Of a DNA stretch of 64,000 bases, positions 17,437-33,489 are shown in pieces. This DNA is from a candidate division SR1 bacterium (GTDB lineage Bacteria > Patescibacteriota > Gracilibacteria > Absconditabacterales > Absconditicoccaceae). Both the position numbers and the translations under genes were made by a program. The first letter of the stretch is position 1, and each line of letters starts with the position of its first letter. The notes beneath the pieces are model-generated. The model was not told where the DNA came from. It saw only the letters and a list, made by a program, of their open reading frames with translations, and searched no databases. The stretch covers positions 13,533 through 77,532 of the forward strand of contig JAPLUV010000027.1 of NCBI GenBank assembly GCA_026397395.1. The letters run 5' to 3'.

Positions 17437-19141
17437 ATGCCAATTCACAGGTTACCAGAATATCTTATCAATAGACTCAAAGCCGGAGAAATTGTCGAAA
17501 GACCGGCAAGTATTCTCAAAGAATTATTAGAGAATAGTCTAGATGCATGAGCAGATGAAATTATCGTAACAATAAATGACGGAGGAAAAAATCTCATAAG
17601 TATCCAAGATAATGGCACAGGAATCGAGCTTTCCGACATGGACTTGCTTTTTGAAAGATATGCAACGTCCAAGATCAATGGCGAGCAAGATTTATATAAT
17701 CTCCAAAGTTATGGCTTCCGTGGCGAGGCTTTAGCGAGTATCGCAGAAGTAAGCAAAACTTCCGTAATCTCTAAAACTGATTATGCAGAAATTTGAAGCA
17801 AATTAACCAAACTAGATGGAAAGACGCATTTAACGCATCAGCCCGTTGGCTTTGCGCATGGAACAATTATTACCGTAGAAGATTTATTTTACAATGTGCC
17901 TGCGAGACTTAAGTTTCTCAAATCATCTCAAACTGAATTTTTTTACTGTTACAACTACTTCGTGGACGTAGTCTTGTATCATCACGACAAACACTTCGTC
18001 TTCAAAAAAAATGATAAAATAATTTTTGATCTCCCACCAACGGATTCTTTAGCTGAAAGAATGTTAGACGTCTTCAAAAAAGACCGATCCAGCAATCTTC
18101 GTGGTATTCTGTATCAGGACGAAAACGTCATGGTTACCTGATTTGTTTCAGACAGTCAGTTACGTTTTTGATCAGCAGAGCATATTAGAATGTATGTAAA
18201 CACCAGACCAGTTCAGGACAAAATCATCAAGAAAGCATTGATGGACGCTTACCATAGACAAATCCACCCAGGAGAATATCCCTTCGCATTTCTCATGGTC
18301 CAAAGCACACCGTGAATGGTAGATGTAAATGTACATCCAAGAAAGTTAGAAGTAAAATTCGCCGATCCAGGCAAGATGTATGAGATTATTTTCCACGCAG
18401 TACAAAAAGTATTAAGCGAAAATAAAGTCGCTTCATCATGAATCGCTTTCACCAATACGCAAATTCCTAATACACCAGTAACCAATAACCAATATACTAG
18501 TAACCAAAATAACAATAATGAGAGCTTATTTAGTGCTCAGGACATAGATCCATTCGTTCATACGCAAAGAACGTTTGAACATACCGAAACGCCACAATTC
18601 CGAAATCAAGAAATCGGTAGCTATACCATTGCAGGACAAATCCGAAATAGATATGTGATATTACAATCTGATGATGCTGTACTTTGAAAAAATGAAAAAA
18701 GAAATTGGTGATGGGACAAATTTACATTCGGAATTATTGCTCCAGCCCTTATCTATAGAGATTCACGAGCTACCAAATATTCAAGAAAAAATAGATCAAA
18801 TTAATGCACTCTGATTTGATTGTTCCTTATTATCAGAAAATAAAATTGTAATCTACGCTGTGCCACAAATCTTCGTCGTATATAGAGTAGATATCGAGCA
18901 ATTATTTACGCATATTTTTTCACTCGAGCAGATTAATTATGATCATATTTTAGATAAAGTCTTTGCAAGCAAGGCCTGCAAGACATCGATCAAATCATGA
19001 GATAAATTATCGTATCAGGAAATGCAACATCTCGTCCAGGAAGGATTTACTGCTATTCCATGAATGTTTGTTTGTCAGCATGGCAGGCCATTTTTCGTCA
19101 GGATAGAGAAGGGGAGTGTGGATAAATTATTTGATAGATAA
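17437..19141 (+). CDS. mutL: DNA mismatch repair protein MutL, frame-disrupted
   Basis: The ATPase half is intact: [20 protein letters not shown], a DA-G pair encoded with [31 protein letters not shown] and the [12 protein letters not shown] strand. The linker is Asn/Thr-rich. Frame 1 runs on to TAA at 18802, but after [17 protein letters not shown] it stops resembling MutL. The next frame supplies the C-terminal domain ([12 protein letters not shown] ... [17 protein letters not shown] ... [20 protein letters not shown]) and ends at 19139-19141. Between them the segment that normally reads LYLIDQHA..ER is absent, including the endonuclease motif. Either a small deletion or an assembly fault at about 18685-18695. 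Confidence 0.85.
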
Positions 19142-19185: not shown

Positions 19186-20242
19186 TTATATAATCTCTAT
19201 CTGATATCCTGTTAATTGCGAAGCTAGCTTTACATTGCTTGCTCACTTTCCAATTGCCAAAGCCTTCTGACTTTCTTCGATAGTAACAATCGCTCTATGA
19301 TCCAATAATTCTATATGTTGGATTTGTGCAGGTTTTAAGCAATTTTTGATAAGTAAGATAGGATCGTCAGTAAATTCAACGAAATCAATCTTTTCTCCAT
19401 CAAGCAAGGAAAGTACCGTGTTGATTCTGTCTCCTTTACTTCCTACCATCACACCAACGGGATCAATTTTCTCCTCGTGAGAAGCGACAACAATCTTTGT
19501 TCTCTTGCCAGGAATTCTTACAATCTTTTCGATTGTAATGATTCATTCTTCCAATTCTGGGACGATTTTTCTCTTCATCGAGTTCAGGTACGATTTTTCT
19601 CAAGATTGCTTCAATATATTCAGTTGTCGATTGGGTAATTTCCAATACAATTCCACCCTGTCCTTTGGATATTTGTTTCAATAGTACAAAAATTTCTTCA
19701 CCTGGTTCATACATTCTGTTGGGGATTTGACCTTCGGGTTGCAACACGACTGCGGTTCCCTCGATATCGAGGATCACACTATCTGCATGGACTCTAATAA
19801 CTCTTGCTTTCAATAATTCACCCTGCTTGTTTTGAAACTTCTCATAAAATCTTTCTCTTTCTATTCATTTCAAACTTTGTTTAATCGTCTGAGCGGCTGA
19901 TTGAGCAGCAATTCTAGAAAGTTCCATTGTTGCTGGCGTGACATCGATCAAAAGTTTCTCTCCAAGTTCAGCATCTTTTCTAATCTTCTTCGCATCTTTC
20001 ACGCTTACTTGCGTCTCCTCATCTTCGATGACATCGCAAACTTCAAGTTCTTTATAGATTTTTACGCTACCATCGTTCTCGATATTTACTACGATTTCAG
20101 ATTTTTTAAAATCACCATAATCCTTCTTAAATCCTGACTTAATACCAGCCTTTACAATCTCCAATACTTGATACGGATCAAATTTATAATCGTCCACAAG
20201 TTGCATAATGGCAGCTTGGATGCTCTTTCCATCTAGTTTCAT
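19186..20242 (-). CDS. nusA: Transcription factor NusA, frame-disrupted
   Basis: A transcription elongation and termination factor. The N-terminal domain (20242 down; MKLDGKSIQAAIMQLVDDYK, ATMELSRIAAQSAAQTIKQ) and S1 domain (GELLKARVIRVHADSVILD) are in one frame. The KH domains (KIDPVGVMVGSKGDRINTVL, GEKIDFVEFTDDP) are in the next frame, ending with TAA at 19186. The switch falls at two adjacent 28-bp near-copies (19546-19573 and 19574-19601, 23 of 28 identical). Removing one copy restores a single frame through VPEL.EEGIITIEKI. The usual C-terminal extensions are absent, giving about 345 residues after correction. Confidence 0.9.
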
Positions 20243-21907: not shown

Positions 21908-23239
21908 CTACAAATTTTTCAACACATCCGTGATAATGGAATTAGATACGTCCATGCCAGAGTCAGTTAAGCTTAGTTTTGTTCAGTCAAAGTTTACTAA
22001 TCCTGCTTTCACAAAATCCGCAATCAGCAATCCGTAATTTACAATCAGGCAATCCTTATATTTTGAAATATCACTAATGCCTTCAGCAGTTCTTAATTTC
22101 AAGAAAAATGATTCTATCAAAATATCTTTTTCATTCAGGGAAATAACAGAGGAGTCGTCCTTTCGTTCACCTTTCAGATATGTTTCCAGACTATTCGTAT
22201 TGGTTCGACGCATAGCGTGTGCTAATTGTGTCATCCTGAGAGAATCGAAGGATATATTCGGTTTATTATATTCTTCGCTTTGCTCAGAATGACAAACTTT
22301 TGGATGACAAACAATAAAAGATGAAGCCGAGACTCACAAGCCTAAATAATTTTCCATATTTCGATATACCATATTGTGAATACTTGCACATCATCTTCTA
22401 CAGAAATTAGAAATCTCATATCTCTGGTATCCGAAGTTACTGATCTTCTTTTTTAGTATTTCAAATTCTTTCATAATGAGCTCGTCATTATCGTGTCATT
22501 GCGAACGAAGTGAAGCAATCTCAGTGTTAGGATGGATTCCTTCGCTTTGCTCGGAATGACGAGCGAGTTCATTGTACCATTTTGAATTTTCATGTAATTC
22601 TAAGGTGTATAATGAAAAACTTTCTGCAAACTGACTTTGGACGAATTTCGTAAAAAAGTTTATTCTCGTATCGTCTCGTAATTTTCCGTTCGGTTTAAAC
22701 TTACCGAAGGCGATGAAATCAAAATTAAAAACATTATTCTCTTGTTTGAGATCTCTCAATCATCTCAGAAATTGCGTCATACCTACGAAATTATATGGCC
22801 TGCCAGCTCGTTTCAAAACCGCATCATCCAAACTTTGGATCCCAAAACTAAATCTTATTCTAGGAAATTGTTTATATTCTTTATTTAGTCTTTTTATCAG
22901 ATCATAAATCTGATCCATCGGATACGGATTAAACTCCAAACTGAGTTCGGCGAGATTTTCTACGTTTCGCCTCGTAGTACTACGAGGTTCTGTCTCCTGT
23001 ATTTTTTGTATAATGCGTTGTATTCATTCGAATCAGATGATATTTGGTGTTCCTCCTCAGAAATAAATTGTCTTAATATCTTGCTCGCCAAGCTCCGTTT
23101 TGTAATAATCAATCTCATGTTCCAATGCTTCTAAATAGGCTGGAATGGAATCTTGCATACCAGGAAAAGATGCAAATGAACAGTAATTGCATTTATTTTG
23201 GCAGAAGGGAATATGAATGTATATACTTAGCAAGTGCAA
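21908..23239 (-). CDS. hemW: HemW-like radical SAM protein with in-frame repeat insertions
   Basis: A 443-residue coproporphyrinogen-oxidase-like radical SAM protein; characterised HemW is a haem chaperone. Seen: SIYIHIPFCQNKCNYCSF with the CxxxCxYC cluster-binding motif, the GGGTPN motif after a UGA-Gly at 23057, and FSFGIQSLDDAVLKRAGRPY. The frame (checked for TAA/TAG between the known pieces) runs through two palindromic repeats that add HSEQSEGIHPNTEIASLRSQ near the middle and CHSEQSEEYNKPNISFDSLR further on. These are translated repeats, not family sequence. Stop is TAG at 21908-21910. Whether the organism uses haem is unknown. Confidence 0.85.
22230..22293. repeat. GTCAT...ATGAC palindromic element inside hemW, copy 1
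   Basis: A 64-bp element with inverted ends (GTCATCCTGAGAGAATCGAA ... TTCGCTTTGCTCAGAATGAC). It is translated in frame in the host gene. Related copies: 22495-22560, 30284-30360, 58338-58413. Confidence 0.8.
22495..22560. repeat. GTCAT...ATGAC palindromic element inside hemW, copy 2
   Basis: A 66-bp element (exactly 22 codons), GTCATTGCGAACGAAGTGAA ... TTCGCTTTGCTCGGAATGAC, read in frame within hemW. Confidence 0.8.
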
Positions 23240-23422: not shown

Positions 23423-26401
23423 TTAGAAGGGTAGATCGTCATCTCCATCATCTGAAAAGGGAGATGAACGTCTATTCGGTTCTTCGGAAGCAGCTTCGTC
23501 CTTTGGTAATTCATCAATGGCAGTTTGATTATCTATGGAAATAATTTTGGCAACAGTATCTCGTGTCCCGTCTATATCAGCCAACCACATTCTAATATTG
23601 ATGTCATACGTTTTCTCTATTGCGATATCCTGTAAAGAAACAGTCTTTCATTTATAAGATAATTTTTTGTCATCACGTAATAAGATAAGTTCATCAACGC
23701 CAAGATCATTTATGGTATCAGCTATTTCATTGATAATTGTTTCAGTAATTTCGACATAATTTTCTTTCTCTGCTAAGAGCAGAGCTTCTACGACATCTTC
23801 TTCCAAAAATCTATCGATAATAGTAACCCAGTCATCTTCTGACATATCAAAGAGCTTGGATAGTGGCATTGTTGCTCAGGATTGGGTGTGTTGGAGTATT
23901 CACATTTTACTAGAAATGATCATTCATTGAATATCATGATCTCTTAAATATGTTGCCAATCTGTCGGCATAATTAATGGTGGTAGCTATGTTTTGTCTTT
24001 CTTTCATTTTTTTATCTCTTGCAATCATCTCAGGAGAAATGGCTCGATTAGTATCTGCTTTGGTAGATGACAATCTTCTGTAGTTTTGTGTGGCTACCTT
24101 GGGAGCTATGCTCTTGAGATAATCAGCTGCGGCATTTCTCTTGAAGGTACTGACTAATCCCTCTCCATCTCTCTTGGTCATAAAACTAGCAAACATAGGG
24201 ACAATATGCGCTATCTCTGCCACAGATGAATCGACACGATTCTTTCACATATTTTGGACAATATTCCATATGGTTTCTGCATGAGGATGCTGCTCACCAT
24301 ATTGCGTAGCAAACCAAAGAAGAAAGTCTTCTTCACCAAGAAGCATCTGGAGTCCATGAGAAATCATATCAAAACAATAATGAAGCATATCCCAGTATTC
24401 GTCAGACTTGATCCCATCAAGAATCTCTGAGTAGCCAAGTTCTCTGATTCATAATTCAGCATATTCGCAGAAATCTACGATATTATTTTTTTGTTGTTCG
24501 ATCTCATGTAGTTTTTCCTCTAATCATGCTTCACTAAATAATTGTTTAAGTATATCAGTAGAATCACGTCCACGAGAAAAATCAATCATACTTTTGATTT
24601 CATCGACCGTAATACGAAGTCAGTATTTTTTTAGTGTTAGCGGAAAATCTGCTTTGCCAGCAGTCTTTATAATATCTCCATGGCGTGGTGATTTATCAGA
24701 TGTATATTGCTTAAATACTTCAGGCATCTCTACAGCCAAGAGATTTTCTCTTAGTATTTTCCCTTGTAGTCGGACGAGAGGACGTTCTGTTTTTTTATTT
24801 AGTTTATATGCACGAAACATCTCTAGCGTATATGGTTCTTCTATGAGTAATTTTGTGGTTTGTGGAGTTTGTTTTTTGAGGATATCTCGGACGATAGGCA
24901 GTATTACTTTAAAGTTTCGGTTTTCGCTAAAAAATTGCTCAGTAAACCAATCTTCAAAATGTGAACGTGAAAATTTTGGCGATACCCCATCTTCGATTCC
25001 GTACATGAAGTACATGCTCACTACGATGGTGGTCAGTAAAGATTCTTTTTGTTTTGTGTCATCAAATCTAAGCTCAGCCAAAGATATTGTCCTGTCAACA
25101 TCATCAAAAAATGAAACAAATGTTTCTTCATGTGTCTGAATCTTTTCCAAGAGCTCATTATCTACTCGAGAAGAAAATACATCATCTACGAGTGTATAGA
25201 GATGTTGATGCTCGGGAAGATGCTCGTTATTAAAAGGATATTTCTTTTTGAGAATTTTTTCCAAAAGTTCTAAGGTGGTAGGAAAATCATTTTCTACTTT
25301 CATCTTTGATAAATCAAGCTTCCCAGTTTTTAGAAAATAGATGTCAGGATATCTTGCAGAGATTTTTTTTACTATGTCAGACTGGTTTGAGTCAGGCAAT
25401 ATTTCTGCTGTAGTATTTTTATCAGAAGAAATAATTGTTGGGGCTGGCTTAGCATAGACATCAATAGTCTCTCGATTTGCTGTACTAACAATTCCTCACC
25501 ATCCAATGGATCTAATCGGATCAGGAGAGATAATTTCATGTTGTCGTGTACGAACAGCTTCTACTATATCGTCATCAGGTATATCGATAAATTTCGAAAT
25601 AGATTCTGTATGCTTCTTATCATTGTGCTCTAAGCAAAGCAGCTCTTTGTTTTCAATAATGTTTATTCAAGCAATATTATTCTCTGAGAAAAGTATCTCT
25701 AACTTTTGCATAAATGCATAAATTTTTTCTCTAATCTCTGCTCGTTTGAGAATATCCAATTTCCACTGCACTTTATTATTTTCTCATCGTTTGAAAATAT
25801 CTTCCGTAGCGTTGGGAACTGTTTGGATGATCTCCTCTTTAGCTACAGAAAATCCTCCTCGACGATAACCCTCAGGAGAATAATAAAATATTCCTTTCTC
25901 ATAAGAGACATGAGGAATATCAGGGAGAATCTTTTGGCAGATAAGGGTAATGCATTGACTTGTTTGACTACTTCTAGTCTTGGGATCAAGAATGATTTTA
26001 CGTTCGTGAAGCGTTTTTGTTCTGGACTTCGTGTTGGAATTTGTATGTGGGGTATGGGGAACATATCTAAGTAAATCTCGTTTGTGGGGAAAATATTTTT
26101 CAAACTTTGGATCATTGTTTTTTACTCATTGAACGATAGCGAGAAATCTTGTCTCTCATAGTTTGTCTATACTTTTTTGAAAGTGTATTCAAGAGATATC
26201 ATCAAGAACTAAAGAATCTGGATCTGAACTCTCATCAAGAGTGGTCTGTATAGTCTGGATTAACTCTATCTTGGTGTCCGGTTTTTCATCTATAGAAAAA
26301 TTATCCATAGCTGGAGTATCAAAGTTTATTTCTAGTGTGCCAATATTTTTCTTTTCCTTCTGTCTTGCCATATACATATTAGATGGTAAATGGGTTGACA
26401 T
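23423..26401 (-). CDS. Large hypothetical protein with SSB-like acidic C-terminal tip
   Basis: A single 992-residue frame in which the pieces at 26189-26401, 24620-25399, 23924-24223 and 23648-23869 share one phase and are joined by UGA-Gly codons. No signal peptide or membrane span. The N-terminus is polar (MSTHLPSNMYMARQKEKKN). The middle is helical and charged (ELLEKILKKKYPFNNEHLPE). The last residues are RRSSPFSDDGDDDLPF, closely resembling the DDDIPF tip by which single-stranded-DNA-binding proteins recruit replication and repair enzymes. I do not recognise any other domain. A DNA-metabolism role is inference from the tip alone. Stop is TAA at 23423-23425. Confidence 0.75.
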
Positions 26402-28834: not shown

Positions 28835-30244
28835 TTACACAATATACACAATCCTATCGCCAATATTGGCTTCTGTTGGGCTATCAAAAGTCGCTAATAC
28901 TTGCTCACGACCAATCTCATCATAACTATCAATTTCCGGCGCATGTAACCATGGCCTTATCGTTAACGTTTTAATCCCGCCTTGCGGGACTCCTTCGTTT
29001 CACTCAGTAGCTTTTCAACTTTTCAATGTAAATCACATAATATAACCAACATCTTGTTCTCATTTTCTGACTTTTGACTTGATGACTTGAAGACTTTCGA
29101 CTAACTTTCTCATTTCTAGAAATCTCTTTCTAATCTCTCCACTGGGAACCTTATGAGAAAGTTTTGAAGATGTTGCGAATGGCTCATCATGATATTCAAA
29201 GAGTGCGATATTATCAAAATCTGATTTCAGGACAAATTTTTTCAATTTTTCGAAATCTTTTTCAGTCTCCCCGGGGAAGCCAATTATCAGGTTGGTCCTA
29301 ATGAAATGGACAGAAAAGAGCTCTTTTATGCTAGTTAAAAACTTCCCAATATACTCCTCATCATAAAATCTTCCCATTCTTTTTAAAACAGATGAAGAAA
29401 TATGCTGAAGCGGAATATCAAAATAAGGAATAAATTTCTTAAGCTTCGTTAAATTTTCCAATTGTTTCAACGTAACGACATCAGGATACAAATAGAGGAG
29501 CCTATATTTAAAGTCTCATCTCAGCTTATCTAGTTTTTCCAGTAATTCAAATAACACAGGTTTCCCATACAAATCACTTCCATATCTCGTCGTGTCTTGT
29601 GCTATCAAGATAATTTCTTGTATTCACGCCTTGATCATATGCTTCGCTTCTTCCAGGACTTTCTCTATCGGTAATGATCTTTGCTTTCCTCTAATCTTGG
29701 GAATAATACAAAAGGTACAGCGATTATCGCATCATTCTGCTATTTTCAAATATTCAAATTTTTCTTCCACATTGGTATAGACTCTTGGCCCCTTGCTAAA
29801 ATTGAACTCACCAAAAGTTGTACTATTGTATCAATCCATCAATTTCTTAATCGTAATATTTTCAAAATCATTCCAAGAGAGGTAAAAAAGGTTTGAAAGG
29901 GGAGAATGGTTTGAAAGGAATTTATCCTTTGCACCTTTTATCCCATTATTCCCTTTTAACCCCATATAATATTCTAATCAACATCAAAGTAAGTAGACAA
30001 TTTTTCCATTCGCAAGCAATTCGTGAAGGGTGTCCAGCATTTCTTTTCTTCCCGTTTCTATAAATCCACAGGTATTCAAAAAGACAAAGTCATTTTCTTT
30101 CTCATAAGGATCAGCGAAGTAATTCACTGCATAATGAGGATTATTCGCTCCCATATCAAAAAGATGTCCAAGGAGATACTGGCTATCTACTAAGTTTTTT
30201 GTACATCAGAGGTTTATGAATGAGAAGTTGAATTGTTGTTTCAT
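28835..30244 (-). CDS. rimO: Ribosomal protein S12 methylthiotransferase RimO
   Basis: A 469-residue radical SAM enzyme that methylthiolates an Asp of S12. The UPF0004 domain shows [19 protein letters not shown] and FLNTCGFIE. The radical SAM motif is [20 protein letters not shown], followed by [33 protein letters not shown] and [10 protein letters not shown]. The C-terminal TRAM domain runs through further UGA-Gly codons ([13 protein letters not shown]) to IGDRIVYIV and TAA at 28835-28837. Two regions look like translated repeats: [15 protein letters not shown] near residue 95, and [13 protein letters not shown] inside the TRAM region. Confidence 0.92.
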
Positions 30245-30283
30245 GAATAAGGTTTGATATAAAATGTTATTTCGAGTAATCGT

Positions 30284-30360
30284 GTCATCTCGAACCACTT
30301 CGTGAGAGATCCTACAAAAGCTACCGGGAGATTTCTCCTCTCTTCGTTCGTCGAAATGAC
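30284..30360. repeat. GTCAT...ATGAC palindromic element, intergenic copy
   Basis: 77 bp, GTCATCTCGAACCACTTCGT ... TTCGTTCGTCGAAATGAC, between rimO and the hydrogenase-like gene. Confidence 0.75.
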
Positions 30361-31854: not shown

Positions 31855-33384
31855 TTATTCTGCAAAAACTTCTTCCACTCAATCTTTCAGGGTATAGCTA
31901 TCTAGAAATTCTTTTAAGTGTGGTTTTTTCTTTATCAACTCTTCCATGCTTTTCATCAAGGTTTCATAATCTCCGGCTTTGGGATACACATACGTAATCG
32001 GATCCAAAAGTCCGGTTGGTCTGATAATCTGTTCTACGATTTTGTCTGAGAGTTTGAGCTCGTATTCGGCGGGGGTGGCTGATAAGAAAATCGTCTTCGC
32101 ATCCAAATGCTGTCTTACAGGTATTTCTGATCATTTCAACTCTTTGACAATGCGTTCTTGTAAATGCTTATACGTATTTCCCAATTCCAAAATTTTGAAA
32201 TCAGTTTTTTTGACTTTATCCGTATGATCTTTTCGTCCAAGTTTATTTTCCAATTCAGCAAATGCAAGTGGCCTATGATCCAGCGCCGATGGTAATCTAA
32301 ATCCATAGTTCACGAGGTTCATTTTTCTTGCCTTATCGCCAGCTGGCATCGCTTGCAATTGCGGTATCGTCATATGTGATTCATCTATAATCAATAAGAA
32401 ATCATCAGGGAAATAATCAAAAATCGTATTTGGCGCTTGCCCTGGCAATCTGCGATCAAAGTAAAGAGAATAGTTCTCGATACCATTTACAAATCAGGTC
32501 TCCTTGATCATTCTGATATCATATTCTACTCTTTTTTTAATCCTCTCGGCTTCTACGAGCATTCACTTTGCTTCAAATTCTTTTACTCTTTCATTTTTTT
32601 CTTCATCCATCTGCACGAGAATTTGTTCCAAATTAGTGACGTCTTGTAAAAATTGTGTTGCTGGCCAAACCGTAATTTTGTTTACTTTGCTATGATAATC
32701 ATAGGTTGTAGAATCTCTAAGTTCAATCAATTCCAATAACTCTTCATTAAAATGTAATCTGTACACAAACTTTTCCGTACTGGAAAAAATATCAATCCTT
32801 TCTCCCACAATATCAAACATCCCATGTTCTATCTTTCCATGAACGGGCTTATATTGCATATGCAGAAGTTGCCTTTTGAGCTGTTTGAAATCGTATTCTT
32901 TTCCGATTTCTAATTGTAAACAATTTTCTTCAAAAAATCTCTTTTGTCCTAGACCATACAGTGAAGACGCGGAAGCTACGACGATCACATCTTTCCTCGT
33001 GAGCAAGGAAGCCATAGTTGCCAACCTGTACATTTCTATTTCCTGATTTATGGTCGCTTCTTTTTCGATATACAATCCTTGTGTCGGCAAATAACTTTCC
33101 GGCTGATAATAATCAAAGTAGGAGACGAAATAATGCACAGCGTTATTGGGAAAGAAGTATTTAAACTCTGTCGCCAGCTGCGCTGCTAGTGTTTTATTAT
33201 GTGAAATAATCAGTGTCGGTTTATGTAAATGTTGGATAATATTTGCCATCGTAAAGGTCTTTCCCGTACCCGTAGCTCCAAGAAGCGTTACTTTGTTTTT
33301 GCCTTTGGAAAAAACATCCTGAATTTCTTCTATGGCTCTTATCTGATCTCATGCTGGTTGGTAGGTGGACTGAAGTTTAAACAT
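31855..33384 (-). CDS. uvrB: Excinuclease ABC subunit B, C-terminally shortened
   Basis: 509 residues instead of the usual 650-700. Present: Walker A GATGTGKT (residues 36-43), the beta-hairpin region [23 protein letters not shown], the damage-binding core, [13 protein letters not shown] (motif II), [13 protein letters not shown] and [11 protein letters not shown] followed by [10 protein letters not shown]. After that the sequence continues only about 60 residues ([20 protein letters not shown] ... DGVEEVFAE) to TAA at 31855. The second helicase domain, with the TLTKKMAE, GINLLREGLD and QTIGRAAR motifs, and the UvrC-binding helix are missing. Whether it works with a partner is unknown. Confidence 0.93.
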
Positions 33385-33415
33385 GTATGTAGGAAATGAT
33401 AAATAACAATAAATT

Positions 33416-33489
33416 TCGGGGTGACAGGACTCGAACCTGCGACCTCAAGACCCCCAGCCTTGCATTCTAGCCATCTGAACTACACCCCG
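33416..33489 (-). tRNA. tRNA-Pro (anticodon GGG)
   Basis: A 74-nt cloverleaf: acceptor CGGGGTG/CACCCCG with A73, D-stem GTTC/GAAT, anticodon stem CAAGG/TCTTG around the loop CTGGGGG (anticodon GGG with G37), and T-arm GCAGGTTCGAGTCCTGT. CCA is not encoded. It is the only tRNA I found in the window. Confidence 0.93.

Follow-up and report, generated by a model that had tools for sequence, protein, structure and literature searches.

An SSB-like C-terminal tip on a large lineage-specific protein of a candidate division SR1 bacterium

The DNA analysed here (the window) is a stretch of 64,000 nucleotides from a candidate division SR1 bacterium, and the protein of interest, P0001, is encoded on its minus strand at positions 23423..26401. 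Read from 26401 to 23423 under NCBI translation table 25, the gene comprises exactly 992 codons followed by TAA, whereas under table 11 it is interrupted by 14 in-frame TGA codons. The 992-residue reading frame described in the first-pass annotation is therefore real, with the corrections that it lies on the minus strand (none had been given) and that it stays open only if TGA is decoded as glycine. This reading of UGA is the established code of Gracilibacteria and Absconditabacteria (PMC8080830). In P0001, 14 of the 38 glycines (37%) are encoded by TGA, a share like the 20–40% seen in most neighbouring genes, a sign that the gene has adapted to this decoding and one that argues for long residence in the genome. 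Met1, Met9 and Met11 are all candidate start residues, and the choice among them is uncertain. The protein is predicted, from a low-confidence model, to be mostly helical.

The gene is flanked by two conserved radical SAM genes on the same strand, one hemW-like (21908..23239) and one rimO-like (28835..30298), which served as synteny anchors. Between P0001 and rimO, on the plus strand, is a Trp-rich membrane-type pair, P0004/P0005 (26631..28758), in which TGA encodes none of the 26 glycines compared with about 30% in the neighbours; this pair looks recently acquired. We set it aside as a candidate operon partner since it lies on the opposite strand, lacks TGA-encoded glycine and is missing from the corresponding locus of the congeneric genome G008; it probably does not belong to the P0001 unit. 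The HemW protein of the window (21908-23239) is 443 residues long compared with 386 in several relatives, and contains two in-frame inserts with a repeated motif (HSEQSE...SLR), as if a REP-like element had been inserted. We also note that nusA (19186-20242) occupies two frames here but is an intact gene of 342 codons in G008; the split represents either a frameshift or an assembly error, and the gene is expected to be essential. The mutL-like frame (17437-19141) ends in an unrelated-looking tail while another frame carries on, so that a frameshift is possible there as well. The UvrB-like frame (31855-33474) stops at about 520–540 residues, shorter than the usual UvrB, and does so likewise in the genus members that were read.

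Searches of P0001 against Pfam, NCBIfam, PHROG, PADLOC and the PDB gave no match above noise, SSB and OB-fold entries included, which bears out the earlier statement that the protein matches no known family. Weak matches to FluMu_N, S16 and T3SS entries were rejected as noise. An SSB profile derived from the bacterial family scored P0001 at the noise level (E 0.08). The check for an OB fold that had been proposed was carried out with Pfam profiles and found no such DNA-binding domain; the DUF3127 (PF11325) and mTERF profiles did not match, nor did the PADLOC anti-phage defence profiles, and we found no catalytic motif or DNA-binding domain. Structure prediction, which had likewise been proposed, was run on the full-length protein (two sequences, pLDDT 27) and on its conserved region (five segments, pLDDT 43), and both models were too poor for a fold search.

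Direct searches with P0001 found nothing in 353 genomes of the class or in viral, phage, plasmid and genome collections. A relative was found by synteny instead, hemW and rimO being linked in the genus. In G008 the only reading frame between these two genes encodes P0006, a protein of 1125 residues (L051:4764-8141) on the same strand as its flanks, so that both locus and orientation match those of P0001. The two proteins are about 23% identical, compared with 64% for RimO and 54% for HemW between the same two genomes. Residues 568–766 of P0001 (24104..24700, minus strand) align with residues 238–446 of P0006 (BLASTP E 7e-6; shuffle z about 11), and over the full length the shuffle z is 4.4–7.8, whereas eight unrelated proteins of the window gave z values of 1.6 or less against P0006. 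Judged by these alignments, the homology outside the tip is significant; the N-terminal parts of the two proteins do not align. Residues 363–539 (24785..25315, minus strand) may be a divergent second copy of the conserved region, although the comparison is weak (z 3.6 within P0001, 5.4 across P0001 and P0006). Together with the offset between the aligned regions, this suggests that a helical unit of about 200 residues may be present in different copy numbers in the two proteins.

The gene is patchily distributed within the genus. No P0001-like gene is present between hemW and rimO in G004, G005, G007, G009 and G010, in which the locus is contiguous; in G003 and G006 the two flanking genes are on separate contigs. 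In a tree built from four shared proteins, G000 and G008 are split from the other seven genomes with a support of 100, and a single gain on that branch, or a single loss on the other, accounts for the pattern. The suggestion that the protein is lineage-specific is supported; P0006 is the one relative found. Since P0006 was itself missed by sequence searches with P0001, a negative search does not establish that the rest of the class lacks relatives. A class search with P0006 returned matches at E 0.001–0.01. Other genomes gave weak matches to the A2 profile; these were rejected as chance, as those that were read fall within or next to recognisable proteins of unrelated kinds (trigger factor-like, AAA and UvrD-like by eye).

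The last 12 residues of P0001 (981–992; 23426..23461, minus strand) are PFSDDGDDDLPF, closing with DDDLPF, as first noted. They form the end of an acidic stretch of low hydrophobicity (residues about 961–992; 23426..23521, minus strand) which, from its TOP-IDP profile, is likely to be a disordered tail of about 30 residues that serves as a linker leading up to the tip. From amino-acid composition, an end of the form [DE][DE][LIMF]PF would arise by chance in about 7e-6 of proteins, or about 0.008 times in a genome of 1200 proteins. P0006 ends in NNFSTEKDESLPF where P0001 ends in SPFSDDGDDDLPF; the closing stretches are FSTEKDESLPF and FSDDGDDDLPF. Failure of orthologues to conserve the last six residues had been named as the observation that would refute an SSB-type tip, and in this single comparison, between one orthologue pair from two draft assemblies, the tip survives as DESLPF (four of six residues identical). 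The region preceding the tip aligns poorly on its own (z 2.8–3.6) and better when the tip is included (z 5.1–6.8), which argues that conservation is higher in the tip than in the sequence around it; given the overall identity of the two proteins, the tip has outlasted most of the protein.

Reading frames ending in [DE][DE][LIMF]PF were collected from 49 genomes of the bacterial family, with the reversed pattern as a control. There were 81 raw matches, compared with 10 for the reversed pattern. Reading the frames sorted them into 39 DUF3127 proteins (an identity confirmed for the copy in the host genome; PF11325, E 1e-10), 19 SSBs, eight frames of under 45 residues, which we rejected as chance, and 15 others, namely P0001 and 14 more, against about 0.4 expected from composition. 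Nine of the 14 have a recognisable domain (RVT_1 in three, PD-(D/E)XK in two, a CHC2 zinc finger in two, AAA/OLD TOPRIM in one and an mTERF-like domain in one), every one a nucleic-acid protein, and the remaining five are unknowns. It is this recurrence on nucleic-acid proteins that forms the main ground for reading the P0001 tip as functional and DNA-related.

Some of these proteins are worth describing individually. Three related retron-type reverse transcriptases of about 500 residues, each from a different genome of the family (L145:362-1876, L127:347-1846 and L129:3008-4507), have SSB-like ends reading DDIPF, DDLPF or DELPF. A GajA/OLD-like AAA-TOPRIM protein from a genus member (L146:2687-4552) ends in DDLPF, as does a protein of 702 residues with mTERF-like helical repeats (L106:322-2430; Pfam E 1e-4, just under the cut-off). 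The mTERF proteins are usually eukaryotic. A tip-like end, EEDTPF, also occurs on a non-DNA protein, a phosphoglycerate-mutase-like protein encoded beside nusA and hemW in G003 (L058:124-639).

The SSB tail is a known interaction hub that has been studied mainly as part of SSB itself. Many partners are recruited by SSB through its tip (PMC10018359, PMC7145534). In solved complexes the last phenylalanine of the tail enters a hydrophobic pocket beside a basic patch, and a Deinococcus radiodurans SSB-Ct peptide ending in EDDLPF has been crystallized in the C-terminal pocket of RecJ (PMC4846377). The host SSB ends in PDDEDVPF, and all nine SSBs of the genus have an acidic end closing in VPF. Because the host SSB carries the tail, a network of proteins that read it probably exists in this organism. 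The suggestion that P0001 plugs into such a network gains from this and from the tip-bearing DNA-handling proteins of the family, but two of the partners that had been named fare less well: RecO (PF02565, RecO_C) and PriA (PF17764, 3'BD) were unmatched in the nine genus genomes while control genomes were matched, although divergent forms may be missed by these profiles.

In our view, P0001 is best explained as a large, mostly α-helical, lineage-specific accessory protein that docks on DNA-processing enzymes through a tail mimicking that of SSB, a reading that we regard as reasonably probable. Its flexible acidic C-terminus would imitate the SSB tail of the cell and would occupy the tail-binding pocket of one or more such enzymes, so as to tether these enzymes or else to compete for them with SSB. 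P0001 would be a fast-evolving accessory of DNA metabolism and would form one class with the tip-bearing proteins found elsewhere in the family. A DNA-maintenance role, as first suggested, is proposed from the tip alone, and the binding to SSB partners, their identity and the cellular function of P0001 are likewise putative.

We considered other explanations of the same observations. P0001 could be a defence or conflict protein, directed at phages or mobile elements, whose tip senses or sits at replication or repair intermediates. Its patchy occurrence at a variable locus, its rapid divergence and the presence of retron-type reverse transcriptases and a GajA-like protein among the other tip carriers are in keeping with this, but the PADLOC, PHROG, phage and plasmid searches were negative, the native-like TGA usage points to long residence, there is no toxin, nuclease or ATPase domain, and the G008 locus keeps no recognisable partner gene; we consider this explanation unlikely. 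Less likely again is that the tip is a proteolysis tag through which P0001 is degraded by ClpXP, whether or not an adaptor takes part, with no SSB partner bound. In some strains of Streptococcus mutans the final LPF of SsbA is enough for ClpXP to degrade GFP, although this recognition is strain-specific (PMC5143411). LPF is indeed the best conserved part of the tip between P0001 and P0006, but the preceding acidic residues are partly kept too, the SSB of this genus ends in VPF rather than LPF, and the tip is concentrated on nucleic-acid proteins. In ssDNA-binding proteins the acidic tail also has a role in cis, and the P0001 tip might be a chance feature or a structural one, such as an autoinhibitory tail folded onto its own protein and unlinked to SSB partners. 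We hold this to be very improbable given how rarely such an end is expected by chance and its recurrence in the sole relative found, where the adjoining sequence aligns poorly.

As a more tentative proposal, to which we give rather less than even weight, the SSB tail could serve in this TGA=glycine family as a portable, general docking tag on many unrelated nucleic-acid proteins, its carriers being the DUF3127 proteins, reverse transcriptases, nucleases, primase-like proteins and helical-repeat proteins including P0001. A shared tail code would in this way connect accessory and defence proteins to the machinery of replication and repair, and P0001 would be an SSB-mimic scaffold of a new class. 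Should the SSB tail indeed be shared by unrelated proteins of a single lineage, it would offer a means of detecting DNA-metabolism and defence proteins that are invisible to profiles, and would predict one concrete contact for each protein that bears it. Such sharing would further reveal how proteins are still organized around SSB-type docking in a reduced genome where neither RecO nor PriA is detected.

Three known kinds of protein come closest to P0001. Bacterial SSB (PF00436) has the same acidic C-terminal tail, flexible stretch and end in [LIV]-P-F, but P0001 is seven times longer, matches no OB or SSB profile and has a known range of two genomes. The small DUF3127 proteins, present in most genomes of the same bacterial family, also end in DDLPF; they are about 105 residues long and widespread, and P0001 does not belong to them by profile. 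The retron-type reverse transcriptases and the PD-(D/E)XK, CHC2 primase-like, GajA-like and mTERF-like proteins of the family resemble P0001 in being non-SSB proteins ending in [DE][DE][LIF]PF. P0001 shares no sequence homology with them, and several have recognisable catalytic domains whereas P0001 has none.
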